Positions 1-58,741 of a stretch of 64,000 nt of DNA are shown here, piece after piece. The DNA is taken from NCBI GenBank assembly GCA_963921195.1, contig OY992537.1:76762894-76826893 (forward strand), read 5' to 3'. Every line of letters begins with the position of its first letter. The stretch's first letter is position 1. This DNA is from Pegoplata infirma. Its lineage: Eukaryota > Arthropoda > Insecta > Diptera > Anthomyiidae. The notes beneath the pieces were generated by a model. The model was not told where the DNA came from, ran no database searches, and saw only the letters and a list, made by a program, of their open reading frames with translations. Both the position numbers and the translations under genes were made by a program.

Positions 1-1010
1 GAAGGGCAATTTTGTATCTGCTGAACTAATGGTCCTAGATATTGAAGTTTGGACTGTACGATCCTCTCGCGGAAATAACATTCTGGAAGAAGTACTTTTT
101 TGGAAAAATCTGCTTCTATAGGGGGAAAAAGAGGGAAAGTAGGGAAATTTGAAATTTGAATCCTCTTGCGGAAACAACATTCTAATGGAAGTACTTTTTT
201 GAAAATTTCGCTTCTACGGGAAAAAAAAGGGGAAATTAGGGCAATTTTGTATCGGCTGAACTAAAGGTCCTAGATACTTGAAATTTGGAGTGTACGATCC
301 TCTCACGGAAAAAACATTCTGAAAGAAGTACTTTTTTAAAAATTTTGTTTTATAGGTGGAAAAGGGGGAAAAGTAGGGCAATTTTATATCTGCTGTACTA
401 ATGGTCCTAGATACTTGAATTTTGAACTGTTTTGTATCTGCTAAACTAATGGTTCTAGATACTTGAAGTTTGGACTGTACGATCCTCTAGCGGAAATAAC
501 ATTCTGGAAGAAGCACTTTATTAGTAAATTCTGCTTCTAAGGGGGAAAATGGGGAAAGTAGGGCAATTTTGTAACTTCTGAATTAATGGTCCTAAATACT
601 TGAAATTTGGACTGTACGATCCTTTCGCGGAAATAACATTCCAAAATAAGTACTTTTATGAAAATTCTGCTTCTAATGGGGAAAAATAGAGAATGTAGAG
701 ATACTTAAAATTGGTACTTTACGATCCACTCACGGAAATTACATTCTGGGAAAATAATTTTTTGAATTTTCGCTTCAATTTGGTACATATTGTTCCTTAT
801 GCACTAATGTTCCTTGAAACTTAAAGTTTGAACTATGTGATCGTTTCGCCAAAATAAAATTTTTTGCAACTTTTAATCTACTCAAAATATAATATTTTAA
901 AGATCGAAACTAACAATTTTTATGTTTAATTAAAAATTAATAAGAATTTGAAGTAATAAAGTTGTTTCTTAACAGCTAACCGGTAACGAAGTACCGGGCG
1001 AGTTAGCTAG
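1..1010 (+). mobile_element. Helitron, 3' part, cut by the window edge
   Basis: Diverged tandem units of about 130-150 bp, each with a CTCTCGCGGAAATAACATTC core, end in a terminal hairpin and CTAG followed by T. The stretch is colinear with 24256-25244, so it is a second copy of the Helitron found there, in the same orientation. No Rep/helicase coding sequence is visible. The 5' end lies outside the window. Confidence 0.75.
974..1010 (+). other. Helitron 3' terminal hairpin and CTAG end
   Basis: AGCTAAC pairs with GTTAGCT, and inside it CCGGTA pairs with TACCGG. The sequence then ends CTAG with T as the next host base. This matches the usual Helitron 3' end (hairpin, CTRR, insertion between A and T). 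An identical end occurs at 25208-25244. Confidence 0.8.
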
Positions 1011-1727
1011 TTATTGTATATAAAGAGCATTATGGCATATTTAAAAAGACAATTGTAATTAATTTCTTTTGTTAGGTTAGATATTCTATAGTATATATGT
1101 GTGTGTGTGTTTGTACGTATTTTAGTACTTAGGTAAAAGGAGGTGTGTGTAAAGGAAAGAACACAGAACGTGTAATTGCGAATGTGTTTCAGAATAGAGT
1201 TGACTTGGTGCCAGTTGAATTTAACATGACACAATGCAATTTTAAATAGTTGTATTGTCAGCAAAAGGCAAAGTGACTTTCATAAGCAAGTTTTCAATGA
1301 GTAGTCACTATAATGAAATGTTTAAATGATTCAATAGGAAACAGTGGTCCGAAGGTGTAAATTACCACAATTTGCCATGAATAATAATAAGTTATTAGAC
1401 TTGGTTGAATAAAAGAGAATAGATTTGTGAACAGTTTAAAGGTGGTAATGCATCTTGTGTTTTAATTTTTTTTCTTCGGTTAAATATACCCTGCAAGCGC
1501 GATTGAGGCAAACATTTTCAAAATATATATCAATAAAAATAAAATACCGTTCGTTGGTAACTGTATTACTCTAGAATGGCTTGACCAATATACGTAATAT
1601 TTTTAAAATGCTCGCGATAGTCTAACTAAGCTTTGTGGAATAAATTGTCCACGGAAATTTCTTTACTCATTTTTTTGGATTTGGGTAATTTTTTTTTAAT
1701 AATTGTTATAATCCTTCGCTCATTTTT
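1011..1727. other. AT-rich spacer, no gene seen
   Basis: Holds a short (GT)n run near 1097-1110 and otherwise unstructured AT-rich sequence. The open frame on the minus strand at 1007-1264 has no recognisable features. Nothing else could be supported. Confidence 0.5.
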
Positions 1728-3080
1728 TTATACCCTCCACTCTAGTGAAAGAGGGTATATATAAGTTTGTCATTCCGTTTGTAACACATCGAACTATTGG
1801 TCTAGGACCCCATAAAGTATATATATTCATGATCCTTGATCGATTTTAAGTCGATCTAGCGATGTCCGTCCGTTCGTCCGTCCGTCCGTCCGTCCGTCTG
1901 TCTGTCTGTTCGTTGAAAACACGCTAACTTTTGAAAGACTTTATGGAGGCTCCTGAAGTTTGACATATATGTTGGGTATTTACCGGGTCAGGTTGGTATT
2001 GCAATCCAGCCAAATCGGTCCAGTGGTTCAAAAGTTATGAGCAAAAGAGTAAATTTCGGCAAGGGAATTTTGCGAACTTACGAGATTAAAACCACTCTAA
2101 CTTTCGAAAGAAAATTCTGAGGGTGCTGAAACGTGTTACATATCTTTGTCGTTCCCCAAGTCTATTTGGTTTTGCAAATTTCAGCAAAATCGGTTCAGTG
2201 GTTCAAAAAATATAAGCAAGGCTCCGAATTTCAGATTTTTTTCACATTAAACTGTTGAAAACTCGTTAAACAAGTTTTAAAAGCATGGTGAAATACCAGT
2301 TTTTTTTTAAACTTGTTGTTGTTTGTTTTCCTGCCGTGGGGTGTAGTTTAGTTGTTAGACAAGTAAATATTTGTTATTGTTTTTGTAACTGTATGTAACG
2401 GTGTATAGTAAGTATTTTTGGAAAAAAATCAAATATTAGTTTGTTTTTGGTTTTTAAAGACGAGGATGGTAAAATAAAATGAGGAAAATATGTGAAATAT
2501 ATTTTTTTAACATATGCGTATACTATACGTCGTATAGGTATAAAACAACAAAAATATTTTACAAAGTAATTTTGTTACTCAAACAAATAGTACACTAAAA
2601 AAAATATTTACGCTTAAAAAAATTTCACACTCAAAAAAAAATGTTTTTTTTTTAATTTTTAATTTAATTATTTTTTATTTTTAATTTTAATTAATTTAAT
2701 TCACACTCAAAAAAATGTTGACAGTCAAAAAAATTTTACACTCACAAAAAAATTTTACTCAAAATAATATATTTCTAATAAATATTAACACTCAAAAAAA
2801 AAAAGTTTTTTTTTTTAATTTTTAATTTAATTAAATAATAAAAACAATAAAAACAACTATAATTATTTTAATTTAATTATTTTTTTTTTTAATGAAATTC
2901 ACAATCAAAAAAATGTTGACAGTCAAAAAAATTTTACACTCACAAAAAAATTTTACTCAAAATAATATATTTTTAATAAAAATTTGTAATGCAATTTTTT
3001 TAGAAAATTACTATCAGATAACATTGTGGAGGGTATTCATAGATTCGACCAAGTCGAATTTAATTTTTCTACTTGTTTTT
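1728..3080 (+). mobile_element. mini-me/DINE-like (Helentron-associated) element
   Basis: Begins TATACCCTCCACTCTAG, followed by a (TA)n block at about 1818-1830, a short conserved core, and a GTCC/GTCY microsatellite at 1864-1910. It ends with GAGGGTATTC and a small hairpin (TTCGACCAAGTCGAA) near 3042-3056. This order (TA block, core, GTCY block, terminal hairpin) is that of dipteran mini-me elements. It is non-coding. Related full or partial copies occur at 16791, 17205, 36494, 42355, 47868, 50323 and 54584. Confidence 0.7.
2700..2990 (+). repeat. Internal 90-bp direct repeat inside the mini-me-like element
   Basis: About 2700-2790 and 2892-2985 are nearly the same block (TTGACAGTCAAAAAAATTTT, then ACTCACAAAAAAATTTTACT, then ataatatattt), separated by T- and A-rich sequence. 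It is an internal duplication that uses a CACTCAAAA word also seen in arrays elsewhere in the window. Confidence 0.65.
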
Positions 3081-3305
3081 ATATATCTTAGATCGCATCA
3101 TTTGAGAACAATTGCACAGTAGGGTAGAGAAACTTTTAGAGCAAAAAATCAGAAACAAAAACGTCGGGGTTGGAAAAGTTGCCTTTTAGGGTCAACATTA
3201 ACAAAAAAAAATTGGACCTGTAGGCCAATGTCTTAGGGCCGTTGGGGTCCTACTCTAAGAGTTTTTTTTTAGTTTTGTCTCAAAATGACTTTTTTCGAAT
3301 TTTTG

Positions 3306-3530
3306 TTACAATGGTTGGCAAATTATGGTTCGTTTTGGTCTGAAAACTCTATATTTAAGTTTTTAGCAAAATCTGTCCTTTTAACCTGTGCAGCTGGGAG
3401 GTAAAATTTGACCCTCACAAAAAAATTTTTGGTTTGTACAAAAAACTTTAACCTCCCAGGAATACGGGTTAAAATTGTCCGATTTGGCTAAAAATTTAAA
3501 CATAAAGTTTTTAAAAACATAACCAACGAC
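3306..3530. repeat. Foldback repeat (inverted arms about 100 bp)
   Basis: The left arm (about 3306-3412, with GTTCGTTTTGGTCTGAAAAC and AACCTGTGCAGCTGGGAGGT) is the imperfect reverse complement of the right arm (about 3438-3530, with AACCTCCCAGGAATACGGGTT). A related unit, now split, is the target in which the BEL element sits (3840-3945 plus 13622-13690). Confidence 0.6.
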
Positions 3531-3945
3531 AATATGCCAGGCAATATACAAAAGTAATTTTTTGTCATAATACAAAAAATTTAAAAAAATGGTAAAAAAG
3601 CATTTGTTGCTGTTTTTTTATACATTTCAGAATACGATAAAGATATCATAGATAGGAATAAAATTTTTTTGTGGATATGTATCATTAAAAGCAATATCTC
3701 AGTTAAAATCTTTCCAAGTCAAAACTAAAAAAGAATTTTTAAATGGCCCTAAAATTTTTAGAAGTCAATTTTGAAGAGGAAGGATTATCCCACCAAAATG
3801 AAATTTTTAGTCGTTAATAAGCTAATTATACATATATAATAATAATTAAAAAAAAATTTTAAAATCGAAAAACAAATTTTTTGGTTTGTATGGAAAAAAA
3901 TTTTTTTTTTGGCAAAACTTTAACCTTAGAAAGGCACGGGTTAAT
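3531..3945. repeat. AT-rich sequence ending in the left half of a foldback unit
   Basis: The stretch before the BEL element ends with AACCTTAGAAAGGCACGGGTT, which continues after the element as TTTGGCTAAAAACTTTAAAC. The joined order matches the right arm of the neighbouring foldback at 3438-3530. No gene is visible. Confidence 0.5.
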
Positions 3946-3950
3946 ATTGT
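3946..3950 (+). other. Target-site duplication of the BEL element, left copy
   Basis: ATTGT immediately precedes the 5' LTR and is repeated exactly at 13617-13621 after the 3' LTR. Five base pairs is normal for BEL/Pao insertions. Confidence 0.9.
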
Positions 3951-4491
3951 TGTTTACGTGGGACAATTGTAGTTAGACGCTTCATTGTATTTGCACTTGT
4001 CCCGCGTAGACTTCCCCGGTGGGTAACACGTCTGGCATCACTGTTGGGTAGTAAGTGTGGTGGGTTGGCGATCAACACTGTTTTTGCATATTCTTATTTT
4101 TTGCTATACACACACACACACTAACTAACCAACATTCAGCAAAATAAAACGGTATCGACTATAGAAAAGAAGTTTGGTGTTAAATAAAAAAGTTCTTTTT
4201 ATATTCTTCATATTCTTGCTGCACACGCACATGGTGCATTAACAAACGTAAAAAAAATCTTATAAGAATACTTTAAGTTATAAAATAAAAATTGAATTGT
4301 CTCATCAATGTAAATATAAACAACACAAAAGGTGGTGGTTTTATTTAAACAAAAATTCAAATTGGAAAACTGTATACAAACACACTGGGCCACTGCAAGC
4401 AAAATATCCGACCACGTATACGTTGAGTGAGCCACGGAATCTCACCAGATCATCTTCGAAGGTTACATCTACTCAGCCCGTCAAGGTAACA
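3951..4491 (+). repeat. 5' LTR of the BEL element
   Basis: Starts TGTTTACGTGGGAC and ends TCAAGGTAACA, 541 bp, the same length as and apparently identical to 13076-13616. AATAAA-like signals lie at 4144-4149 and 4176-4181. TATA-like motifs lie near 4279 (TATAAAAT) and 4315 (TATAAA). The U3/R/U5 limits cannot be fixed from sequence alone, but the internal LTR fragment at 10078 suggests R starts near 4333-4345. Confidence 0.92.
4315..4320 (+). promoter_or_regulatory. Candidate LTR TATA box
   Basis: TATAAA lies about 20-30 bp upstream of the point where the recombined internal LTR fragment begins (equivalent to 4333). A second candidate, TATAAAAT, lies near 4279. The same motifs occur in the 3' LTR. 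Functional assignment is inference. Confidence 0.4.
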
Positions 4492-4493
4492 TT

Positions 4494-4511
4494 TGGTCCT
4501 TCTACCGTCAG
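4494..4511 (+). other. Candidate primer-binding site
   Basis: TGGTCCTTCTACCGTC lies 2 bp after the LTR and starts with TGG, as expected for pairing to a tRNA 3' CCA. The internal leader copy at 10242 reads TGGTCCTTCGAACC, so the two leaders differ after TGGTCCTTC. I cannot name the tRNA. Confidence 0.5.
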
Positions 4512-4626
4512 AAGAATAAGGAGTCAGTGGAACGCGAGTTTTTGGAAGAAGTCTTGTAGCTCACTAGCCGTATTTAACAGCGATTACAGAGTAAGAAAAA
4601 ACAAAACACAGTTCGGAGGAAAACAG

Positions 4627-4632
4627 GTGCGT
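4627..4632 (+). promoter_or_regulatory. Candidate 5' splice donor in the leader
   Basis: CAG|GTGCGT is a close match to a 5' splice site and lies upstream of the Gag ATG. Between the predicted RNA start (about 4333-4345) and this site I find no ATG. Joined to the acceptor at 12006, it would make the ATG at 12016 the first AUG of a subgenomic RNA. A weaker alternative donor is AAG|GTAACA at the LTR end (4486). Confidence 0.4.
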
Positions 4633-4992
4633 AATTTGAAATTAAATTATTCAAAAGTGCTGCGAAATAAAAGGAGACAATAAATAATTAAAAATAAATT
4701 TGTGTCTCAAACCCAATTTGTGTCTCGCTTAATTTTGAGGTTATATCAAGTTACGTAACGAAAGTGTGATTTTCGACAAGTGCCATTTTTTTTTTTTTTA
4801 TTCGCTTTACCGTTAACTCTGTTAATTATTGTTGTACTTTTTTTTGCGTTTCTCTTTTCTTAATTTTTTTTGGTCGCTCTTTTTTTTGTGCCTACGTGAC
4901 TTAGTGCAGGAAGAATTTTTTTTTGTTGTCTATTGGTTCTCTTAAATAAATTTGGTTTAGAAAAGTTTGCGCCTTTTTTATTTTTATTGTTT
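4633..4992 (+). other. BEL untranslated leader
   Basis: AT- and T-rich leader between the candidate donor and Gag. No ATG was found before 4993. Open frames across 4297-4683 have no family features and are ignored. Confidence 0.6.
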
Positions 4993-7900
4993 ATGCTTAA
5001 AAAAAGAAAGAGAAAAAAAATAAAGATGTCAGCCTATGAAAAATATATTAAGGCGGCCGATGAAGTAGCTGAACAGGAAAACTTACTGTCGGCTGCAGAT
5101 ATGTCCGAATATAGTGCAGAAGCTTTAGAGTTCGAAAAAACTGAATTAGATAAGGTTTGGACAAAGTATAAAACACTTTATGAAGAGTGTGGGGACACTT
5201 TAGAAAAGAAAAAAGAGGCAGTTGTAGTTCAAGCAAGACACCCGGAAGTTCGTCAGGCTTACATTAAATGTTTAAATATTTTGTCTAAGGCAACAAAAAA
5301 TTTACCGGTTGAAAAATCTGAAACTGCTAAGGCAGTGGTTCCCAATCAGGTGTCCTCGTTCCCTGTACCGCCATGTGATACAGCAGTGTTTCATGGTGAC
5401 TATAAATCGTGGCCCACATTTCGCGACATGTTTACCGCAATTTACATAAACAATACTAGGTTAAGCCCAGTGGAAAGATTATTTCACCTATTTCAGAAAA
5501 CTGATGGTGAAGCGAGGGAAATTAACCGAAACGTTGCCTTAACGGCTGAAAATTTTGAAATTGCGTGGAACAATTTAAAGGCCCAATATGAGAACGAACG
5601 TGTCTTATTGACTAGTCAATTAATAGGTCTTTTCACGATGAACCCATGCCAAAATGATACCGCTCAAGAAGTAAAGAGGCTTCAAAGAGATGTCGTAAAT
5701 TACATGTCGGTCCTAAAATTAAATAAGATCGATATTGAGACTTGGGATCCGGTGTTCGTCATACATTGTGCTTCGAGATTAAGGGGCCAATCTATGATTT
5801 TGTGGGAACAGTCGGTTAAAAATAAAACAAAAATGCCTAAGTGGGAAGAATTAAACGATTTTTTGACTGATAGGTATCATGCTATGGAAAGCATGGCGGA
5901 GCTCATGACCATTGGTAGTCAGTGGCCCAGCAGTTCCCAAGCGGTTTCTCAAGAGACCCAACAAAGTGTTTCAAAACCAAAACAATTAAAGGCTCATCAC
6001 ACTAAGGCTGATTTAAAACAGTGTAAAGTTTGTAGTGGGAGTCACCCAATTAGCTCGTGTCACAAATTCTTAAATATGGACCACAAGAAGCGCGTTGAAA
6101 ACCTTAAAAAGAATAAATGCTGTTTTAATTGCCTTAATGCTGGTCACATGTATAGTGAATGTCCGAGTCAAAACGGGTGCTCTAAATGTAAAAAGAAACA
6201 TCATACGTTGATGCATCGTGACTTTATAAAAAAGGCTACGCAAACAAACCAATCGAACCAAGCAAGTTCAACTAATCCAGTGAACAATGGGGCACAGGGT
6301 GCTATTCCGAAAAGTTCATCTAGTAATTTACAGTCCACTAGTCTTCCTGGTCCATCTGAAGTTGTCCAATCACATCATATTTCTGTAGCGAAAAAAGTGA
6401 TGTTAGCTACGGCGTGGGTCAATATTGCTTATTGTGGTTCCAGCTACAAAGTACGAGCATTAATAGATCCGTGCTCCGATGAAAGTTTTATTTCGGAGAG
6501 AATCCAAAAATTATTAAAGTTGCCCACTGTGCCCGTTTCAGCTGAAGTTACGGGTTTAGGCGGTGAAGTTGTTAGTAAAGTTAACAAAATGGCGACTTTT
6601 GTAATTGTGTCTCTACAAAATCCAAATTTTTCGATAAATGTTGAAGCTTTGGTTGTATCTCAGGTGACAGGGAATATTCCTACGCATTCCTTTACGCCCT
6701 CGAAAGGCGTTGAGTTGCCGAAACTAGATTTTGCAGATCCTGATTTTTTTAAAAGCGGTCAGGTTGACATTTTGTTAGGAGGGGATCTGTATCCACTGAT
6801 TTTACGAGGTGGGGTTCAGCATGGTGTTTTTGAATCACTTGTGGCTCAAGAAACAATTTTTGGCTGGATCGTGACGGGTCCTACGACCAGTAAAAATGCA
6901 TCTCGATCTGTACGAATGTCATTTATGACAAAGGTCTCAATTGACGAACAGTTGTCTAAATTTTGGGAATTGGAAGAAGTCTCCCATAAGCCATTATTAT
7001 CTGAGGATGATAGGAGATGTGAAGAGATTTTTTGTTCCAGCACTGTGAGGAACTCTGAGGGGAGATATATTGTAAGTCTGCCCTTCAAAAATAAATGTCC
7101 GTCACTTGGCCCAAATAGACATATTGCTTTGCGTCAGTTTTTAAGAAATGAAAGTTCATTGATGCGTAGGCCCGAGTTAAAGATTCAATATGATGAGGTC
7201 ATAAAGGAATACTTAGCTTTAGGACACATGGAGGAGACTAAAATGTCGTCAGGTGGCCCCAGTTATTATTTACCTCATCACGGGGTTTTTAAACCGGAGA
7301 GTACCACTACCAAATTAAGGGTGGTGTTCAATGCTTCGAGTGCGTCGTCCAGTGGTCACAGTCTTAACGATTTGTTATATGTAGGCCCTGTTCTTCAAAA
7401 GGACTTAGTCTCTTTAATATTAAAATGGCGATTTTTTCAATACGTTTTCAACGCAGACATTTCTAAAATGTATAGGCAAATCCTGATTACACCTGAACAT
7501 GCTACGTTTCAGAGAATCGTTTTTCGTAGTTCGCAAAATGATGAAATTCGTGATTTTAAGCTAAAGACAGTGACTTTTGGGGTAAACTGCGCACCGTACC
7601 TGGCCCTTAGGACACTTTTGCAATTAGCTAATGATGAAGGGCAACGTTTTCCGCTAGGCGCTGAAATTCTTCGTGACTCAATGTACGTTGATGATGCCCT
7701 TGTAGGAGCTCATTCGATTTCGAATGCTTTGGTGGTCCGTGATCAGTTAGTAGACATTTTAAAATCTGCAGGGTTTGAATTACGCAAATGGACTTCAAAT
7801 TCGATGGAAATTTTAAAAGATCTGGCGCCTGACCATTTGTTAGACTCGTCCTTTTTATGTCTCGATGATAAAAGTACAGCAAAGACTTTAGGAGTGCGAT

Positions 7901-9510
7901 GGAATGCTGCAGGTGACTTTTTTTACTTTGCCAGTGAGAAAATCGCGCTTAAATCATCTTATACCAAAAGGGAAGTGCTTTCGGTCATTGCTAGGCTGTT
8001 CGATCCAGCAGGATGGCTAGCTCCAGTGGTTGTTACCGCGAAAATTTTGATGCAGCAAATGTGGCTCGACAAAATTGAATGGGATGACGCAATAAAACCT
8101 GTAGCTTTAATAAAATGGCAGGCCTTTGTTTCAAAATATAATGATGTTGACATGATCACTATTCCGCGATGGGTCCAGTATTCTCCGGGGTGTAAGATAG
8201 AAATTCATGGCTTTTGTGACTCGTCGGAGCTGGCGTATGCGGCGGCGTTATATGTCAGGGTTCAGATCGAAGGGCAGGTAGTTTCAAATCTTTTGGTTGC
8301 GAAGACAAAGGTGGCTCCGGTCAAAAAATCTTCGTTGCCTCGATTGGAATTATGTGGAGCGGTTCTGTTGGCGAATTTAATAGACAGTATAATGCCTAGT
8401 CTTAATATAAAGGGCTATACTATTTATTTGTGGTCTGATTCCACCATAGTTCTCGCATGGCTGAAAAAGCCGCCCTGCAGCTGGAAAACCTTTGTGGCAA
8501 ACCGAGTGGCCACTATACTGGAAAAGGTTGGAAATAAAAATTGGTTTCACGTGGCTTCGCAATACAACCCTGCCGATCTAGCAACCCGGGGGCTGACTCC
8601 TTCGGATCTTAAAAATAACGACCTTTGGTGGCACGGCCCTGAGTGGCTCAAATTAGAGAGAGCAATGTGGCCCAAAAGTTCGAGTGAATTTGAAACTTCT
8701 GTTGAAATTAAAAGGGCCATGGCTCATGTAGCTAGATCGTCCTCAACGGAGGATATATTGGATCGTTTCTCCTGTTTTGCTAGAGCGATTCATGTAATTG
8801 CATATATGTATCGATTTATTAATCGAACTAGAAAAATTCATCATGGCGATGTTTCATACAGGTCGCTCAGAGTTTCCGCTCAGGAGTTAGTGTTTGTAAG
8901 AAAACGGCTGTTTTATGTGTCCCAAATAATTCACTTTCCAGACGAAATAGGCTGCTTGTCAAAAAACAAAAAGTTAGATTCTCGTAGCCCTTTAGTGACT
9001 CTTACACCGTATGTGGATAAAGACGGAATCATTCGTGCTAACGGTCGGCTAGGCTCTACGACAAGTTTGTCTTATAATGAACGGCACCCCATAATTTTAG
9101 CTTATAAAAGCAGGCTAGCTCGTTTATATATCGAATTTGTTCACAAGTTAGTCCAGCATGGTGGCCCTCGTTTAGTCCTTAACACTATTCGTCAAGAATG
9201 TTGGATTTTGAAAGCACAAAACCTTATTAAAACTTGCATTCACAACTGCAAAATTTGTGTTCTACATCGGAAAAAACTTCAAGGTCAAATTATGGCAGCC
9301 CTTCCCGATGAAAGAACCACCATTAGTCGTCCATTCGCGAACACAGGTGTCGATTTTGCGGACCCCTTTGAGATCAAAAGCTTCACAGGTCGTTACTGTA
9401 GGATCACGAAAGGCTACGTTTGCTTGTTTGTCTGTTTCTCAACAAAGGCAATTCATTTGGAACCTGTCAGTGACCTGTCGACCCCTGCCTTTATGGCCGC
9501 TTTGGCTTGA
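4993..9510 (+). pseudogene. gag-pol: BEL Gag-Pol polyprotein, truncated in integrase by a nonsense codon
   Basis: One frame of 1505 codons from the first ATG (4993) to TGA at 9508. A second in-frame ATG at 5026 has better context (AAAGATG) and would drop a very basic KKRKRKK stretch. Visible parts, numbered from 4993: DUF1759-like gag with FHGDYKSWPTF near residue 133; zinc knuckles from about 344 (CKVC..H..C, CFNCLNAGHMYSEC, CSKC..HH); A16-like protease at LIDPCSDESF (Asp492); RT with the first Asp in NADISKMY (822) and YVDD (898-901); RNase H with Asp1076, the LPRLEL Glu and Asp1149; integrase zinc region and first catalytic Asp in GVDF. The stop falls before the second Asp (FSDNG) and the Glu, so the integrase is dead. 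The nearby ADPF replaces AGPF of the second copy. Family assignment is firm. The remaining activity is inference. Confidence 0.92.
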
Positions 9511-10086
9511 TTCGTGGCCCGTCGTGGTTGTCCTAGTAAAATCTTTTCCGATAATGGTAGAAACTTCGTCGGTGCGGCACGCGAGATCGATTCAAACTTT
9601 AAAAAACATATCGCTGAACTCAGCGATCTTGCCGTCTGTAAATATGGTCACCAGCGATTGTCGTGGCACTTTATACCTGCTGCGGCCCCACATATGGGTG
9701 GCCTGTGGGAGGCGGGGGTTAAGAGCTTCAAAACCCATTTCCGAAAAATGTCTGGGCAGCTCAAGTATACATTCGAAGAGTTTTCAACCCTACTAGCAAC
9801 TATAGAAGCGTGTCTCAACTCTCGGCCATTGAGTCCACTTTCGGAAAATGTTGAAGATCAGTCGGCCCTTACACCGGGCCATTTTCTTATTGGTTCCACC
9901 ATTTTGTCTCCTGCGGAACCAGAGGAAACGCAACCGGCAGTTAGCATCTTAAACCGCTGGCGAAAAGTAAAGGCTACGCAGCAAGAGTTCTGTAGGCGCT
10001 GGAAGGAGGAGTATCTGAAAGAGTTGCACAAGCGTAACAAATGGCAGTCTCCTCAAATAGACCTCCAAGAAAATGATGTGGTGGTT
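8594..10086 (+). repeat. First copy of a 1493-bp duplicated pol segment
   Basis: Matches 10277-11769 at a constant offset of 1683. By eye I find three substitutions: GAC versus GGC codon near 9361, TGA versus CGA at 9508, and a silent C/T near 9519. The segment runs from TGACTCCTTCGG to GTGGTGGTT. Confidence 0.9.
9511..10077 (+). pseudogene. Rest of the first integrase copy, in frame after the stop
   Basis: The frame continues straight after the TGA with the integrase second half (FSDNGRNF, then HMGGLWEAGVKSF with the Glu) and the DUF5641-like region up to NDVVVL. It then runs into LTR sequence, which adds a nonsense tail ending at 10176. Only the stop and the broken C-terminus separate it from the intact copy at 11194-11769. 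Expression would need readthrough. Confidence 0.85.
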
Positions 10087-10237
10087 TTATTTAAACAAAA
10101 ATTCAAATTGGAAAACTGTATACAAACACACTGGGCCACTGCAAGCAAAATATCCGACCACGTATACGTTGAGTGAGCCACGGAATCTCACCAGATCATC
10201 TTCGAAGGTTACATCTACTCAGCCCGTCAAGGTAACA
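10078..10237 (+). repeat. Internal partial LTR (R-U5-like, 160 bp)
   Basis: From GTGGTGGTT to GGTAACA it equals the last 160 bp of the LTR (4332-4491). It begins at a 9-bp microhomology, GTGGTGGTT, shared by pol (11761-11769) and the LTR (4332-4340). It is followed by leader sequence with a primer-binding-site-like TGGTCCTTCGAACC at 10242. The upstream part of the LTR is absent. This suggests a junction formed at the 5' end of a genomic RNA (inference). Confidence 0.85.
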
Positions 10238-10276
10238 TTTGTGGTCCTTCGAACCGTGGTCCATAGGTCACTGGTT

Positions 10277-11934
10277 TGACTCCTTCGGATCTTAAAAATA
10301 ACGACCTTTGGTGGCACGGCCCTGAGTGGCTCAAATTAGAGAGAGCAATGTGGCCCAAAAGTTCGAGTGAATTTGAAACTTCTGTTGAAATTAAAAGGGC
10401 CATGGCTCATGTAGCTAGATCGTCCTCAACGGAGGATATATTGGATCGTTTCTCCTGTTTTGCTAGAGCGATTCATGTAATTGCATATATGTATCGATTT
10501 ATTAATCGAACTAGAAAAATTCATCATGGCGATGTTTCATACAGGTCGCTCAGAGTTTCCGCTCAGGAGTTAGTGTTTGTAAGAAAACGGCTGTTTTATG
10601 TGTCCCAAATAATTCACTTTCCAGACGAAATAGGCTGCTTGTCAAAAAACAAAAAGTTAGATTCTCGTAGCCCTTTAGTGACTCTTACACCGTATGTGGA
10701 TAAAGACGGAATCATTCGTGCTAACGGTCGGCTAGGCTCTACGACAAGTTTGTCTTATAATGAACGGCACCCCATAATTTTAGCTTATAAAAGCAGGCTA
10801 GCTCGTTTATATATCGAATTTGTTCACAAGTTAGTCCAGCATGGTGGCCCTCGTTTAGTCCTTAACACTATTCGTCAAGAATGTTGGATTTTGAAAGCAC
10901 AAAACCTTATTAAAACTTGCATTCACAACTGCAAAATTTGTGTTCTACATCGGAAAAAACTTCAAGGTCAAATTATGGCAGCCCTTCCCGATGAAAGAAC
11001 CACCATTAGTCGTCCATTCGCGAACACAGGTGTCGATTTTGCGGGCCCCTTTGAGATCAAAAGCTTCACAGGTCGTTACTGTAGGATCACGAAAGGCTAC
11101 GTTTGCTTGTTTGTCTGTTTCTCAACAAAGGCAATTCATTTGGAACCTGTCAGTGACCTGTCGACCCCTGCCTTTATGGCCGCTTTGGCTCGATTCGTGG
11201 CTCGTCGTGGTTGTCCTAGTAAAATCTTTTCCGATAATGGTAGAAACTTCGTCGGTGCGGCACGCGAGATCGATTCAAACTTTAAAAAACATATCGCTGA
11301 ACTCAGCGATCTTGCCGTCTGTAAATATGGTCACCAGCGATTGTCGTGGCACTTTATACCTGCTGCGGCCCCACATATGGGTGGCCTGTGGGAGGCGGGG
11401 GTTAAGAGCTTCAAAACCCATTTCCGAAAAATGTCTGGGCAGCTCAAGTATACATTCGAAGAGTTTTCAACCCTACTAGCAACTATAGAAGCGTGTCTCA
11501 ACTCTCGGCCATTGAGTCCACTTTCGGAAAATGTTGAAGATCAGTCGGCCCTTACACCGGGCCATTTTCTTATTGGTTCCACCATTTTGTCTCCTGCGGA
11601 ACCAGAGGAAACGCAACCGGCAGTTAGCATCTTAAACCGCTGGCGAAAAGTAAAGGCTACGCAGCAAGAGTTCTGTAGGCGCTGGAAGGAGGAGTATCTG
11701 AAAGAGTTGCACAAGCGTAACAAATGGCAGTCTCCTCAAATAGACCTCCAAGAAAATGATGTGGTGGTTCTTAAAAATGAGCCAACTTGTCCTACTGACT
11801 GGCGTTTAGGTCGCGTCGTAAAAACATATCGTGGTTCGGACGACAGAGTACGCGTCGTGGATCTTAAAACGCAAAATGGTTTGATTACTCGACCAATTCA
11901 CAAACTGGTACTTTTACCTCGTAGCCACGAATAA
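10277..11934 (+). pseudogene. Second pol fragment: intact integrase and C-terminal domain, no gag/RT
   Basis: An open frame of about 550 codons starting inside the former RNase H/integrase linker (TPSDLKNND), with no proper start codon of its own. It holds the integrase zinc region (H..H, then CIHNCKIC), the DDE core with GVDFAGPF, FSDNGRNF and GLWEAGVKSF, and the DUF5641-like C-terminus (PGHFLIG, DVVVL, RPIHKLVLL). It ends TAA at 11932. Unlike the upstream copy, all three catalytic residues are present. It is a fragment by origin. An internal ATG could in principle give a free integrase, but nothing shows this. Confidence 0.85.
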
Positions 11935-12006
11935 TTCGTATTTCATCCTTACTATCATTTATATATTTTCCTTCGCAAAATAAACTAAACTAATTTTTCA
12001 TTGCAG
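11935..12006 (+). promoter_or_regulatory. Branch point, polypyrimidine tract and 3' splice acceptor before the extra ORF
   Basis: ACTAAACTAATTTTTCATTGCAG ends at 12006, here read as CTAAC/CTAAT-type branch words, a T-rich tract and a TTGCAG acceptor. The ATG of the next ORF follows 10 bp later. The position matches the env-type splice acceptor of env-bearing insect LTR elements. The donor is proposed at 4627. Confidence 0.6.
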
Positions 12007-12015
12007 TACTTCAAC

Positions 12016-12750
12016 ATGTTTAACGGCCTCTTTAACGCCAACTATGCGTGTCCCCTGTGCAACAGACTCCACGCCATACGACAATGTACCAGATTTATGG
12101 TGATGGACCTTGAAAGCAAGTTGAAAGCAGTGGCCTTTCATTCAATATGCCCAAATTGCTTGGCACAGACTCACCTACGCCCGGCCTGTCGAAGCCTTGA
12201 CCGTTGCCGTCGTTGTATGCAGGACCACAACAGCTGGCTACATCCGCTACCTCGTAACCGAATCTGGTTTCAAATGACCGCTCAGGTACGCATCATCACA
12301 ATGCCAGGAGGTCGCAGCCAAATCACACGCGTGCTGATCGACCCTAACGCAGCCAGATCATCCATTACTGCTGATGAGGCCGAGCGGTTGAACTGCGATG
12401 TTCACCGCAACCGTACCACGGTAACTGTTTACCACCGTCGTTTAGATAAACGCCAAATTGTAGTAAATTGCGCGGTAGAACAAGAATCGTACGGGTATAG
12501 CCCGATTCAACGTATTGACCGTGAGTGGAATCGCACACAAGCCCAACTGGCTGATATTCCCGACGCCGACAAATGGTGGTCCGAAAAACGACGCTACTTC
12601 ATGGTACTGGGTGCTGATGTCACGAAACAGATTTTTATTGGTGCAGCTCATGGTCGCCCTGGCGAAATCTACTCCCAAGAAACTGTGCTGGGTACAGTAT
12701 ATTTTGGCGAAGGAAAAGTGGTCCCATATGACCCAAGACTAGAAGGATGA
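12016..12750 (+). CDS. Extra BEL ORF: Gag-nucleocapsid zinc knuckles plus A16-like protease, in the env position
   Basis: 244 codons from ATG 12016 to TGA 12748, downstream of pol and behind a splice acceptor. The N-terminal third has three cysteine/histidine clusters in the same order as Gag of this element: CPLC..H..C, CPNCLAQTHLRPAC (perfect CX2CX4HX4C) and CRRCMQDHNSWLH. Then come VLIDPNAARSSI, parallel to LIDPCSDESFI of the Gag-Pol protease, and YFMVLGAD with QETVLGTVYFGEG, parallel to the LLGGD and QETIFGWIV blocks. It therefore reads as a short diverged NC-protease paralogue, not Env: no signal peptide or membrane segment is visible. Codon use looks more GC-rich than gag-pol. Function is unknown. 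RNA binding or a dominant modifier of the particle would be guesses. Confidence 0.75.
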   Translation: MFNGLFNANYACPLCNRLHAIRQCTRFMVMDLESKLKAVAFHSICPNCLAQTHLRPACRSLDRCRRCMQDHNSWLHPLPRNRIWFQMTAQVRIITMPGGRSQITRVLIDPNAARSSITADEAERLNCDVHRNRTTVTVYHRRLDKRQIVVNCAVEQESYGYSPIQRIDREWNRTQAQLADIPDADKWWSEKRRYFMVLGADVTKQIFIGAAHGRPGEIYSQETVLGTVYFGEGKVVPYDPRLEG

Positions 12751-13075
12751 AGCTACGTGTCCCTATCTTAAAATATTTAAGTACAAACATTTTTTTTATT
12801 CGTATACCTGAATTTACATTAATTTTAAGCCTTCGCGCTTTTGCTTTGTATAACTCTTAAAGACTGAATTTTTTTCATGTATTATTTTCTTTTTTTTTGT
12901 ATGACTAAACATACGTAATTTTCAATTTGTCATCAATTTTCACTCATATCGTCTTGGATATAAGTCATTGAATTATCATTTTTTTTTTTTTCATTATATT
13001 ATATTTTTTATTTTTCTGTTTCAACTTAAAACTCCTTTTGTAGTTCGTTGCACCGTGGCTGCAAGGCCGGCGGTA
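12751..13075 (+). other. BEL 3' untranslated region
   Basis: T-rich non-coding sequence between the extra ORF and the 3' LTR. The expected polypurine tract is weak: the LTR is preceded by GGCTGCAAGGCCGGCGGTA, which is only partly purine-rich. The open frame at 12968-13249 runs into the LTR and has no features. Confidence 0.6.
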
Positions 13076-13616
13076 TGTTTACGTGGGACAATTGTAGTTA
13101 GACGCTTCATTGTATTTGCACTTGTCCCGCGTAGACTTCCCCGGTGGGTAACACGTCTGGCATCACTGTTGGGTAGTAAGTGTGGTGGGTTGGCGATCAA
13201 CACTGTTTTTGCATATTCTTATTTTTTGCTATACACACACACACACTAACTAACCAACATTCAGCAAAATAAAACGGTATCGACTATAGAAAAGAAGTTT
13301 GGTGTTAAATAAAAAAGTTCTTTTTATATTCTTCATATTCTTGCTGCACACGCACATGGTGCATTAACAAACGTAAAAAAAATCTTATAAGAATACTTTA
13401 AGTTATAAAATAAAAATTGAATTGTCTCATCAATGTAAATATAAACAACACAAAAGGTGGTGGTTTTATTTAAACAAAAATTCAAATTGGAAAACTGTAT
13501 ACAAACACACTGGGCCACTGCAAGCAAAATATCCGACCACGTATACGTTGAGTGAGCCACGGAATCTCACCAGATCATCTTCGAAGGTTACATCTACTCA
13601 GCCCGTCAAGGTAACA
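13076..13616 (+). repeat. 3' LTR of the BEL element
   Basis: 541 bp, TGTTTACGTG to GGTAACA, apparently identical to the 5' LTR at 3951-4491. It is followed by the ATTGT duplication at 13617-13621. Confidence 0.92.
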
Positions 13617-13735
13617 ATTGTTTAATTTGGCTAAAAACTTTAAACATAGTGTTTTTAGACCAATACGAACCATAATTTTCCCGGCGATCGAAGAAATTTG
13701 AAAATAATCGTTATTCGTGCCACCCTAATAATCAT
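13617..13735. repeat. Right half of the foldback target, after the BEL insertion
   Basis: Starts with the second ATTGT, then TTTGGCTAAAAACTTTAAAC and TAGACCAATACGAACCATAATT, which is the reverse complement of the 3320-3370 arm. It ends near a GTGCCACCCTAATAATC word that may be a terminal repeat. Confidence 0.55.
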
Positions 13736-17350: not shown

Positions 17351-17504
17351 CTAGCAACACAGTTTTAATCGGACGGATACAATTTCCTCCGAAATATGGT
17401 TTTATAAATTTATATAAACTAATTTTTATTATGACAAAATGTCGATAAAAACTGATCTTAGCGATCTATTTTTCGGATCAGTGCTGATCTTTCAAATCTC
17501 GTCA

Positions 17505-18020
17505 AAAATTGATGAAAAAAAAAAATATTGATGAAAAAAAAAATTGATGAAAAAAATATTGATGGAAAAAAATATTGATGAAAAAAAAAATGGTGATAAA
17601 AATATTGATGAGACAAAAAAATATTGATGAAAAAAAAATAGTGATAAAAAAAAAAATATTGATGAAAAAAATAATTTTGATGAAAAAAAAAAAATATTTA
17701 TGAAACAAAAAAATATTGATAAAAAAAATTGATGAAAAATAAATATTGATGAAAAAAAATATTGATGAAAAAAAAATATTGATACAAAAAAATATTGATG
17801 AAAAAAAAAATATTGATGAAAAAAACTATTGATGAAAAAAATAATATTGATACAAAAAAATATTGATGAAAAAAAAAATATGGATGAAAAAAAAATTATT
17901 TATGAAAAAAAATATTGATGAAAAAAATATTGATGAAAATAATATTGTGAAAAAAAATATTGATGAAAAAAAAATTTTGATTAAAAAAATATTGATGAAA
18001 AAAAAAAATTGATGCAAAAT
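17505..18020 (-). repeat. A-rich minisatellite (AAAAATATTGATGA)n
   Basis: Tandem 13-18 bp units of ATTGATGAAAAAAAA. On the minus strand it reads TTTTTCATCAATATT, as in the arrays at 35345-36420 and 38150-38650. It belongs to family X and produces spurious Phe-rich frames. Confidence 0.8.
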
Positions 18021-18205
18021 AATTTTGTTACATTTTATTCACCAGCTGGTGAATTATTTTCCAAGTTACAAACCCAAGTTACTACATTTTTCGGTTTTAA
18101 GAAAATGAAAACAGTAATTCCAATTTTCTTTTTTGTTAATCGCTTATATAGCTTATATAGTCAAACTGAGGTGGCTTCCTGCAACTTTTTTAAAATTAGA
18201 CACCA
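18021..18205 (-). repeat. Family X unique segment, interrupted
   Basis: Contains TTCACCAGCTGGTGAA and, on the minus strand, TGGTGTCTAATTTTAAAAAA, the same order as 34583-35340 and 37905-38120. It stops at TTAGACACCA where the CCCGAG element starts and resumes at 26407 (CAGACTAAAAACATTATC). Confidence 0.7.
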
Positions 18206-18959
18206 CCCGAGTAAAAATAAACATATATAACAATATATAACTTGATACAAACATAATCTATATATATAAAAGAGTGTGGTGACTGACTGATTGGCAATAA
18301 TCATCGCCCAGCCCAAACCGCTGAAGCTAGAGACTTGAAATTTGGAATGTAGGTTCGGCTCCCGACAAAACCACCCACTAAGAAGGGATTTTTGGAAATT
18401 CCGATTCTAAGGGGGGCAAAAGGGGGAAAATAGGGCCCTTTAGGGGATTTTGTATCTTTTGAACCAATAGTCCTAGAAACTTCAAATTTGAACTCTAGGA
18501 TCCTCTCGCGGAAATAAAATTTCGGAAAATTTTTTTTTGGAAAATTCCGCCTTCAAGGGGGGAAAAAGGGGGAAATAGGGAAAATTGTTACATTTTTTAT
18601 ATTCTAAACAAATGCTCCCAGAAACTTGAAATTTGAAGTCTAGGACCCTCTCGCGGAAATAACATTTTGGAAAAAGTAATATTTTGAAAATTCCGTTTCT
18701 AAGGTGGGGGGGGGGAGGGGGAAAATAGGGCAAGTTGGTACATTTTGTATCTTCTGAACTAATGGTCCTACAATCTTGAAATTTTGAATGTAGGATACTC
18801 TCACGGAAATAACATTTTGAAAAAAGTACTTTTTTGAAAATTCCGGTTTTAAGGGGGACAAAAAGGGGGAAAATAGGGCAATTTGGTGAATTTTGAACTA
18901 ATGGTCCTAGAAACTAGATATTTGAACTATAGTATCCTCTCGGGAAAAAAACATTTTTT

Positions 18960-19540
18960 TTACTAAAATTTTTTCACTCAAAATTTTTTTTCACTCAAAA
19001 TTTTTTTTTTCACTCAAAATTTTTTTTCACTCAAAATTTTTTTTCTCTCAAAATTTTTTTTCACTCAAAACTTTTTTGCTCAAAATTTTTTTTCACTCAA
19101 AATTTTTTTTTCACTCAAAATTTTTTTTTCACTCAAAATTTTTTTTTACTCAAAATTTTTTTTCACTCAAATTTTTTTTCACTCATAATTTTTTTTCACT
19201 CAAAATTTTTTTACACTCAAAATTTTTTTTCACTCAATTTTTTTTCACTCAAAATTTTTTCACTCAAAATTTTTTTTCACTCAAAATTTTTTTTCACTCA
19301 AAATTTTTTTTCACTCAAAAATTTTTTTTCACTCAATTTTTTTTACTAAAAATTTTTTTGACTCAATTTACATTACTAAAAATTTTTTTGACTCAATTGT
19401 ATTTTATTTTTCAGTTTTTTTACTCAATTTTTTTACTTAAATTTTTTACTTAGAAGGTGTTTTCACCCAAATTTTTTTTACTCAATTTTTTTTTTACTCA
19501 AAATTTTTTTCGCTTAATTTTTTGACTCAAATTTTTTACT
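18960..19540 (+). repeat. T-rich minisatellite (TTTTTTTTCACTCAAAA)n in the Helitron
   Basis: About thirty 15-18 bp units, mutating late into ACTAAAAATTTTTTTGACTC. The apparent 125-codon Phe-rich frame here is an artefact of the repeat. Confidence 0.85.
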
Positions 19541-20161
19541 AAATGGGGAAAAAGGGCAATTTGGTACATGTTCTATCTTTTGACCTAATGGTCCTAGAAA
19601 CTTAAAGTTTGGACTATAAGATCCTCTAACGGAAAAAACATTCTGAAACAAAGTTTTTTTTTAATTCTGGTTCTAGGTATAGGTACATTTGTATCTTCTG
19701 AACTAATGGTCCTAGAAACTTAAAAATTTGGACTATATGATCCTCTCACGGAATTTATGTTCTGAAGAAAGTATTTTTTGAAAATTTTTCATTCAAATTT
19801 GGGGGGTGGGGAAATAGGACGATTTTGAACATTTTCTATATTGTGAACTAATGGTCACAGAAACCTGAAATTTGGACTATAGGAACCTCTCGCGGAAATA
19901 ATATTCTGAAGAAAGTACTTTTTTAAAAAGGCACTTCTTTGGTACATATTCTTTTTTCTGACCTAATGGTTCTAGATACTTAAAGTTTGGACTATAAAAA
20001 ACATTCCGAAACAAAGTTTTTTTTTTCAATTCCGCTTCTAGGGTGGAAAAGGGGGATAATAGGACAATTTGGTACACTTTGTATGTTCTGAACTAATTTT
20101 CACAAAAACTTAAAAATTTTGACTATGGGATCCTTCGCGGAAATAACATTGTAAAGAAAAT

Positions 20162-56840: not shown

Positions 56841-58247
56841 GGGGAACATTTGGTGTGGAATGCCTCCTATGTAGGATCAGAGATTAGTATGGAGTCAAAT
56901 AAATAATGGAAAAATAGGGTATTTGTTTTATTTATTTAAAGCTATAAGAAATATAAGCGCTAGAAATAGTTGAATTTGTCTGTTCGTGACCGTGGAATGC
57001 TCCTCATACTGTGGCGAAATGGGGGTTTAGCTGATATAATGATATTAAAAAAAAAATCTTGGAAAATTTTCTTTAAGAAAGTTTTAATAAACAGTTTCTG
57101 TAAAATTACAAAATAATCTATAAAATGACAGAAAAATATAAAAAGTGAATGACAGAGATATTAGTTATATGTTTTTTAGCAGAAAAATCTGCTAAAAGTT
57201 TGGTAATACCAACTGAAAGTTGTTCTACAGATTTCGATAGAATTTTTCTTCTTAGTATAACACAAATTCTAAAATATTCGCGATTTTAATTTGAACATTA
57301 TTCTTAAAAGTTGTGTATCGTTTTTTTTTTGCTTATCTTTAACATCCTGTCAGAATTAACAAATTGTAATCATAAAATATAATATACAAAAAAAAAAAAA
57401 CTTTGATTGTATACTCATTAATGACTGGCTGCAAATATAAAAAAACACATTGCTTTTCGAATCTTATAAATTTTATCATTAATTTTACTTTATTTCCTTT
57501 TTTACAAACAAACCTCATCAAGCTCAACCAAAAACCAGCGCTATCCAATGAGAGCTCCCTATAATCATTACCTCCATTTATCCAAATAACAAACCAGCAG
57601 CAGCAGCAGGAGCCAACACCACCTTATAAAGCATTTCCTTATTTATTACGCATTCAACTTCATTATCAATGAATTCATTTACATTAAACAAGTACATGTT
57701 GTATTCTGTGTTGTTCTGTTGTTACTATTGGTCTCGACTTGATACTCAGGTTAATTTTGACAAATGAGTTCGATTTCTCTGATGTATTGAAGTAATTTAG
57801 CAAAATTAATGCTTTAATTAATCACGTGCTTTTTTTGTGTCTGAAATACATTTATTTATATTTTTTTGTTTTTTTGTTTTTTTTTTTCATTTTCCGTTGT
57901 TTTCTGTTGCTAGAAAATAAACGGAAGTTCTTTAACCTGCCTCGTAATAAAATCATGAATACCAAAGCAATTTTTTGTTGTTGATTTTTCTCGCTTTTAT
58001 TATCTTTTTAATGAAATGGGAAAATATATTTATTCAAAATCATCAATAAAATGTGCGCTGTTGCAAAAAAAAAGTCAACAATTTGACCGTTGTTCATCGA
58101 TAAGATTGTTATTTTTTTATAGGTTTCATTGTAACAATTTTTTGTAGTAGTATATGTTTGATTTAAATAAATTATGTATCCCACGTGCTTAATTATGGTA
58201 ATTTGAGATTTTAACAATTTTTTATCCGAACAAAATTATTACTATGT
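56841..58247. other. Spacer; least repetitive part of the window
   Basis: A CAG/CAGCAGCAGG run at 57594-57610 and mixed sequence at 57540-57760. No exon, promoter or RNA gene could be supported. Confidence 0.4.
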
Positions 58248-58258
58248 TACAGTCAGAT

Positions 58259-58741
58259 CGAGAAGTGATTGTCAGTGTATTTCCATGGCGGACAGGAAAT
58301 GGCAAGAGTTAAGTACAAGCAGAATTACTAGATTAATCTGGCCGCGTTACGACCTCAAAAGAACTCGCTACCTACTTTCTCTTAACAGAAGAGAATGTCG
58401 GTTACTCACGGGAGTGGTCACGGGACACTGCCTAATTGCTTTCCACGCAAGAACAATTGGACTCATCTCTGATTCCAGTTGTAGAAGATGTGATGAACCG
58501 AAAACGGATGAAACAGTTGAACATATCCTGTGCAAATGCCCCGCATTGGCCAGGCATCGCAAACAAATTTTAGGCAAAGCAGAACTCGAGAATCTGGAAG
58601 AAATCGCAGTTATGGACCTTGTTTGCAACATAGACTACCGCGTTTTATCCTCGTCGCTGAAGGAACATGTGGTATTGCTATGGACTAGCCGGTCTATGCG
58701 AGGAGTTCAAAATTTTGAGCTCCGCCACCCCTAACCTAACC
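58259..58741 (+). mobile_element. 5'-truncated LINE with 11-bp target duplication
   Basis: TACAGTCAGAT at 58248-58258 and 58742-58752. The 483-bp insert is the 3' end of a non-LTR element ending in CCCTAACCTAACC. The frame is open from the very first base of the insert. Confidence 0.8.
58261..58734 (+). CDS. LINE ORF2 C-terminus (partial, no start)
   Basis: 157 codons to TAA, open from the truncation point. A start at ATG 58285 would be internal. Blocks: RECRLLTGVVTGHC, then CRRCDEPKTDETVEHILCKCPAL, that is C-x2-C...H-x3-C-x-C, the zinc-knuckle tail that follows RNase H in I/R1/Jockey-related elements. The RT, endonuclease and RNase H core are absent. No stops or frameshifts are seen, so the insertion may be fairly recent. 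It has no promoter of its own. Confidence 0.75.
   Translation, partial: RSDCQCISMADRKWQELSTSRITRLIWPRYDLKRTRYLLSLNRRECRLLTGVVTGHCLIAFHARTIGLISDSSCRRCDEPKTDETVEHILCKCPALARHRKQILGKAELENLEEIAVMDLVCNIDYRVLSSSLKEHVVLLWTSRSMRGVQNFELRHP

Follow-up and report, generated by a model that had tools for sequence, protein, structure and literature searches.

What is a second nucleocapsid-protease (NC-PR) frame doing in a BEL/Pao retrotransposon, after integrase and before the 3' LTR, where some related elements have an envelope gene? The question is raised by one ORF of Pegoplata infirma (the NC-PR ORF, or simply the ORF), found in the window, that is, in the whole stretch of 64,000 nucleotides analysed; related loci are designated L001 and so on.

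The host element

The element carrying the ORF (3951-13616) has 541-bp LTRs that are 99.8% identical over 545 matched bp, a 5-bp target-site duplication (ATTGT), and a Gag-Pol frame that starts at 4993 (Table 1). It has the LTR pair and short target-site duplication typical of BEL/Pao elements, and the Pao-type domain order DUF1759, Peptidase_A17, RT, integrase, which is the same in the sister elements. As for the Pfam matches, DUF1759 and Peptidase_A17 are above cut-off and RVT_1 just below it; Integrase_H2C2 is just below cut-off in the first pol copy and just above it in the repeat, while DUF5641 is above cut-off. LTRs, one-frame Gag-Pol, domain order and 5-bp target duplication are common to the element and to Semotivirus of the Belpaoviridae (BEL/Pao); in the BEL/Pao elements with env, however, the third gene is env, and here it is a second NC-PR.

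This copy is rearranged between 8594 and 11934: gag-pol stops early, an LTR fragment follows, and the 3' portion of pol is then repeated, its end being 81 nt away from the ORF. The rearrangement was considered as the source of the ORF and discarded, because the sister stretches carry the ORF without a second integrase (0 of 20 long stretches have one). Regarding base composition, the ORF (12016-12747) has a G+C content of 50% and a GC3 of 49%; the values for gag-pol are 41% and 38%.

Table 1. Features of the BEL/Pao element and of its NC-PR ORF (window coordinates)
Feature	Position	Strand	Basis or remark
5' target-site duplication copy, ATTGT	3946..3950	.	read from sequence
5' LTR, TGTT...AACA, 541 bp	3951..4491	+	
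Putative primer-binding site, starts TGGTCC	4494..4511	+	read from sequence
Predicted splice donor, aaaacag followed by GTGCGTAA	4627..4628	+	heptamer GTRCGTA
gag-pol ORF, premature end within integrase, window copy	4993..9510	+	ORF list, Pfam
Gag-Pol NC-PR region, paralogue of the NC-PR ORF	6013..6885	+	alignments
Inner LTR fragment, 99.4% to 3' LTR, rearranged copy	10078..10242	+	
Repeated 3' pol portion, complete integrase end (DUF5641)	10277..11934 (start about)	+	
Predicted splice acceptor AG, ctaatttttcattgcag	12005..12006	+	
NC-PR ORF, 244 aa	12016..12750	+	ORF list, alignments, tree, profiles
Three zinc-knuckle-like clusters, residues 12-76 of the NC-PR ORF	12049..12243	+	
Protease-like part, VLIDPNA through QETVLGTVYFG block, residues 107-231	12334..12708	+	
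3' untranslated stretch, NC-PR ORF to LTR	12751..13075	+	
3' LTR	13076..13616	+	
3' target-site duplication copy, ATTGT	13617..13621	.	read from sequence

Domains of the ORF and their relation to Gag-Pol

The window ORF encodes three Cys/His clusters, CX2CX3HX4C (residues 12-24), CX2CX4HX4C (45-58) and CX2CX3HX4H (64-76), and after them LIDPN and QETVLG, in the order of Gag-Pol, just as a preliminary description had read this stretch. The zinc-ligand spacing of the first two clusters is kept in 26/26 ORF rows and 16/16 Gag rows. As for the third, given for Pao-like elements as C-X2-4-C-X3-4-HH-X3-4-H in the available part of PMC4580426, both cysteines and the first and last histidines are present in all 26 ORF rows; at the second H of the HH pair, the window ORF and several more have N, and others have H. 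These 26 rows were found by similarity and excised by the Cys/His pattern, which no row failed, so that ORFs with lost knuckles would be under-sampled.

The NC part of the ORF aligns without gaps to the Gag NC of its own element, with 29% identity and an E-value of 2e-10; its local score is 116, against a maximum of 59 in 1000 shuffles. Likewise, a DNA pattern taken from the second and third knuckles occurs at two places in the window, the Gag NC and the ORF, and at none in 100 shuffles. The protease part is weak in pairwise comparison: one shuffle in 1000 reached its score of 47 when the comparison was with the Gag PR region, and 18 in 1000 did so with the whole Gag-Pol. Profile comparison had been set beforehand as the test of a gag or protease relation, and it found one: PR-only profiles compared with Gag PR gave a probability of 94% (E 1.2e-7) for the window ORF clade, 96.6% (E 5.8e-10) for the L023 clade, and 99.9% (E 3.6e-31) for the older ORF clades; three reversed controls gave 0.1-0.9%. 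At profile level, the sequences make it clear that the ORF tail shares ancestry with the BEL/retroviral aspartic protease domain. The second NC-PR module proposed for the env position is thus borne out for both parts, and so is its strong divergence from the Gag-Pol of the element.

The Pfam scan of the window ORF product returned no family. Among eight other ORFs, three matched retroviral proteases weakly, under the cut-offs (the best being RVP_2, E 0.0012, in L042), L036 had RVP_2 at 0.059, and the remaining four had no retroviral-protease match. Searching PDB sequences with the window ORF gave chance-level matches only, and with a 12-ORF profile two weak zinc-knuckle matches (E 0.48 and 0.6); the AlphaFold2 model, built from three rows, was uninformative (pLDDT 34).

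Distribution in the genome

The window's own genome (1.38 Gb) was searched with the window ORF protein, and at least 150 matches were scored, of 1876 candidates. Forty-nine of these 150, the window's included, cover 193 residues or more, and 47 of the 49 have no internal stop; the same holds for 147 of the 150, where the weaker matches include Gag NC inside gag-pol frames. Sister copies with the same ORF do exist, and the long ones of this genome are mostly open, rather than always broken. The genome contigs designated C1-C7 comprise five of 229-332 Mb, followed by others of 17 and 4 Mb, a set that may resemble a calyptrate fly karyotype.

Thirty-two loci were hand-picked from the 150 scored matches to span the range of the list: in 30 of them, the integrase end lies upstream and a homologous ORF comes right after it, the two exceptions being L026, where the ORF is present but no pol was recognised, and L033, which is Gag itself. 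Of the long sister stretches, 20 in number, 14 have an LTR pair. As the sample was chosen by ORF similarity, it shows the position of the ORF and not its frequency. A counter-sample consisted of the 0.8 kb after DUF5641 at 20 places spread over the best 150 DUF5641 matches; on its forward strand there was no credible NC match (0/20, best E 0.28), and at five places a 266-codon open frame ran through the stretch, matching Baculo_F above cut-off in all five. These five places (L044, L046, L049, L053, L061) belong to other BEL families of this genome, in which a Baculo_F-like envelope frame comes after integrase. The post-integrase contents thus differ by BEL family: they are envelope-like in some, nothing is recognised in others, and NC-PR is present in one clade.

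These envelopes occupy the same place as the ORF but have no sequence relation to it. The ORF has zinc knuckles and, from NC to its end, it is positively charged in 26/26 rows and has no strongly hydrophobic segment, the highest 19-residue hydropathy being 0.95 for the window ORF and 1.46 over the 26 rows. That the ORF is an envelope gene was therefore rejected, as it has no Pfam match, no membrane-like hydropathy and no relation to the envelope family. An assembly artefact was discarded as well, since homologous ORFs exist in many families and on many contigs; the RT of the families that bear them goes down to 52% identity with that of the window.

Beyond this genome, the window ORF protein found no relative in viral contigs, phage records or prokaryote contigs; the Gag NC-PR and RT queries had no match in viral contigs, nor had the RT query in phage records. 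The DNA pattern of the second and third knuckles had no match in viral contigs and two in prokaryote contigs, L001 and L002. In L001, a contig filed as a bacterial MAG, positions 598-6219 (minus strand) hold a BEL-like Gag-Pol frame of 1873 aa, which is probably animal contamination and was used as outgroup; L002, a Cys-rich bacterial protein, was set aside as a chance match.

Origin by an old duplication

The NC+PR tree was built from 16 Gag and 21 ORF rows, leaving out the five NC-only ORFs and near-duplicate loci. All 21 ORFs fall on one side of a branch and the 16 Gags on the other, with support 99/95, which excludes a recent duplication of the element's own Gag. Since the ORFs of the sampled families group apart from the Gags, the duplication would be older than those families; the trees have long branches, so that this depth is less sure than the grouping. 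The preliminary description had supposed that the element captured or duplicated its own NC-PR region: the origin from a duplicated NC-PR holds, its making by this element from its own Gag does not. In the NC-only tree (65 columns, 26 ORF and 16 Gag rows), the ORF grouping appears in 57% of the bootstrap trees, and the AU test on the same data did not reject one ORF clade (p 0.31); on NC alone, a single origin is left unresolved.

The integrase tree (24 loci) has the same main groups as the NC+PR tree. Within the window's clade the branching differs: L018 goes with L021 in the integrase tree, whereas L021 is outermost in the ORF tree. ORF-NC and integrase distances are correlated (r 0.70, 0 of 5000 permutations as high, 23 loci), L013 having been left out as recombinant. 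The simplest history that fits would be one duplication in the common ancestor of the families, followed by co-descent plus some exchange.

Predicted splicing

A site made of a pyrimidine tract and an AG is located no more than 13 nt upstream of the ORF ATG at 27 of the 28 loci; among other ATGs, 164 out of 2271 have one. Counted by distinct family, this acceptor-like site is present in 20/21, the miss being L039. In L016, L019 and L042 the second in-frame ATG was scored, because the first precedes the AG; L028, L036, L038 and L041 were left out, as they have no in-frame ATG before NC. In L028, L038 and L041 the start codon would need to come from the first exon, and L036 has a frameshift near the ORF start. 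With a stricter cut the counts are 21/28 and 84/2271, and the window's own site drops out together with those of its five nearest relatives; an acceptor score of 0.85 is reached by 17/28 ORF ATGs and by 0/19 Gag ATGs, which served as control.

As for the donor, the heptamer GTRCGTA marks a donor-like site 65-229 nt past the LTR in 15/15 loci with a known LTR end, although in L023 the heptamer is only the second-best site and is preceded by CG, not AG; by distinct family the count is 10/10, with 0.22 expected. The leaders of L028, L029 and L030 had no donor above threshold, and L016 and L025 were outside the donor search. From these conserved donor-like and acceptor-like sites, the ORF is very probably made from a spliced subgenomic mRNA, predicted to have its donor in the 5' leader, its acceptor before the ORF ATG, and gag-pol as the intron.

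Selection and protease decay

Of 15 ORF pairs chosen for dN/dS, six were computable, with values of 0.05-0.20, and the other nine were saturated. In the least saturated pair, L034-L035 (dS 0.45), dN/dS was 0.175 (interval 0.114-0.257) over the ORF and 0.170 (0.093-0.268) when restricted to the protease-like half; between L013 and the window ORF, the corresponding values were 0.057 (0.026-0.096) and 0.078 (0.036-0.131). The copies nearest to the window ORF show one nonsynonymous change (L011) and two (L012), with no synonymous change in either, too few to judge. Neutral evolution across copies, the outcome that would have spoken against the proposed module, is not what these six pairs display.

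The ORF is almost certainly an ancient duplicated gene under constraint. A functionless passenger, decayed remnant or assembly artefact, to which the rearranged window copy and its broken gag-pol lend some colour, is hardly credible in view of the homologous ORFs in many families and contigs, the conserved splice-like sites and the low dN/dS.

The catalytic motif of Gag (D, P/S, C/G, S) is kept in 16/16 Gags, none of which lacks the catalytic Asp; this residue is missing in 3 of 21 ORFs (L017, L022 and L031, with NPNA or NPSS). The ORF motifs form a series, DSGS (L029, L042), DSAS, DPCC, DLCC, DVC and DPNA, the last being that of the window ORF, which departs from the aspartic protease motif (D, S/T/P, G/C, S). 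Conservation is better in the second protease motif and in the C-terminal block than in the catalytic motif, and 5/26 ORF rows consist of NC and a basic tail, without protease-like part. In the NC-only ORFs L028, L038, L039 and L041, the C-terminus combines the basic tail with a helix-like segment rich in leucine, exemplified by ILRGALRALERLAKAL in L041.

Judged by its residues, the protease half of the ORF is mostly degenerate, so that of the nucleocapsid-protease module first described the NC part stands as such, and the protease half only in this reduced sense. A second working protease, cutting element or host proteins in trans, is very unlikely: it would agree with the DSGS kept in L029 and L042, the latter with its weak RVP_2 match, but it conflicts with the DPNA of the window, with the loss of the Asp in three ORFs, and with the rows devoid of the protease-like part. 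The families from DSGS to NPNA provide a natural series showing how a protease becomes a non-catalytic domain.

Exchange of the ORF, 3'UTR and LTR

The window element and L013-L015 have Gag-Pols that are 95.9-100% identical per domain, with dS mostly below 0.1 (0.10-0.12 at the integrase C-terminus of L013 and L015); for their ORFs, dS is 1.8-2.0. The DNA of L011 agrees with that of L014 at 98-100% identity from the leader through the pol end, and beyond it the ORF has 72-79% identity, the 3'UTR and LTR differing too. L018 and L019 make a less sharp contrast, having a dS of 0.06 in the Gag NC-PR and a saturated ORF, and pol too diverges from ~4.9 kb on. The ORF, 3'UTR and LTR are exchanged over a nearly unchanged gag-pol. 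In L014, window-type sequence reaches as far as the polypyrimidine tract ahead of the ORF, and the ORF itself belongs to the other type. The switch of type thus coincides with the predicted 3' splice site; it might reflect template switching between genomic and spliced RNA. The L014 stretch at ~6415-6489 holds this changeover.

The exchange suits an ORF that would act on the RNA ends moving along with it, but it does not prove a functional link, because the ORF adjoins the LTR and one crossover moves both. Divergent ORFs with near-identical Gag-Pols argue against a role that needs a close fit to the element's own Gag or protease. This bears on self-restriction, according to which the ORF product would be a trans-dominant, Gag-derived inhibitor of copy number, with an effect like that of Ty1 p22, its dead protease pairing with the Gag-Pol protease or the product competing for RNA. 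Derivation from Gag is what the NC+PR tree gives, the catalytic residues have decayed while the rest is kept, and the ORF diverges and swaps relative to gag-pol, as expected if changes of specificity permit escape; very different ORFs nonetheless share nearly the same Gag-Pol and the ORF is without a capsid part, which makes self-restriction improbable.

Proposed function

The reading preferred here, and on balance a probable one, is that of an accessory gene of one BEL/Pao clade that handles the element's own RNA. As the trees and alignments show, an ancient duplication put the NC-PR part of gag-pol at the env position, where much of the protease character was then lost. By analogy with their family, the zinc knuckles are likely to bind RNA; the retained protease-like half may act as a protein-contact or dimerisation domain, and the ORF protein could work in trans on the RNA of its element, in the export, stability or packaging of the unspliced genome.

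If the whole gag-pol is an intron, the element must export its unspliced genome from the nucleus. Export of the genomic RNA of Cer1 depends on a protein that is translated from a spliced mRNA and has its first exons in common with gag, as reported in the available part of PMC10309623. Nuclear export of genomic RNA as the particular role of the ORF is a tentative suggestion. Equally speculative is a broader scheme, in which the ORF would be a clade-wide, gag-derived regulator, a zinc-knuckle pseudoprotease made from spliced mRNA in place of env, able to recognise the RNA ends of its own element and to govern export or packaging of the unspliced genome, forming with the LTR and 3'UTR an identity cassette exchanged on one gag-pol chassis.

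The same knuckles could instead make the ORF product an auxiliary nucleocapsid, a particle protein adding RNA-chaperone activity for packaging or reverse transcription, and needed because a single Gag-Pol frame fixes the NC:Pol ratio. The Gag-NC zinc-ligand spacing of all 26 ORF rows agrees with it, as do the five rows made of NC and basic tail; it would, however, leave the constraint on the protease-like half unexplained, and no capsid-binding part is known in the ORF, the CA matches being in gag only. It is an unlikely alternative to a regulator of the element's RNA, if slightly less so than self-restriction.

Comparison with known systems

Among known proteins, CERV of Cer1 (C. elegans) is similar in being, according to the available part of PMC10309623, an accessory protein from a spliced mRNA, partly of gag sequence, cysteine-rich and with a decayed enzyme-like domain, splicing being only predicted for the ORF. 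In the same source, CERV differs by its first exons, common to gag, by its other domains and by belonging to another retrotransposon; moreover, export is shown for CERV and only inferred for the ORF. The p22/p18 of Ty1 are, in the available parts of PMC4599808 and PMC8458377, also a separate Gag-derived protein from a subgenomic transcript, which for the ORF is a prediction. Ty1 p22 comes from the gag frame itself, as its C-terminal half, whereas the ORF is a diverged paralogue in a gene of its own, with no capsid part such as that of p22. Extra ORFs beside gag-pol are likewise present in the MDG1 group (sORF2) and in rotifer elements (ORF3). Unlike the NC-PR ORF, sORF2 lies upstream of gag and codes for a short membrane protein (available part of PMC11952523), and the rotifer ORF3s are env-like, esterase or exonuclease (available part of PMC5408684).

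The papers cited describe accessory ORFs of LTR elements that resemble env or enzymes or have an obscure origin; here the ORF was apparently built from the NC and protease of the element, and it can be regarded as a novel type of accessory gene carried by an already known type of element. Among the titles and abstract openings listed from an open-licence library, none describes a second NC-PR gene in a BEL element. Some fly proteins in databases presumably have similar knuckles and might be the NC-PR ORF without a described function. The ORF was apparently kept across families as far apart as their RTs indicate, while its enzyme half turned into a pseudoenzyme. The conserved predicted intron makes the question of unspliced-RNA export directly testable, with the ORF as the first suspect.

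Other features of the window

Regarding its surroundings, the element is flanked by dense repeats with units of ~17 nt and ~140-185 nt (window 1-900 and 17500-19950), a satellite-like setting. A frame open for 175 aa at 58207-58734 of the window includes the stretch CX2C...HILCKCPALARHR, which presumably resembles the C-terminal end of non-LTR reverse transcriptases.
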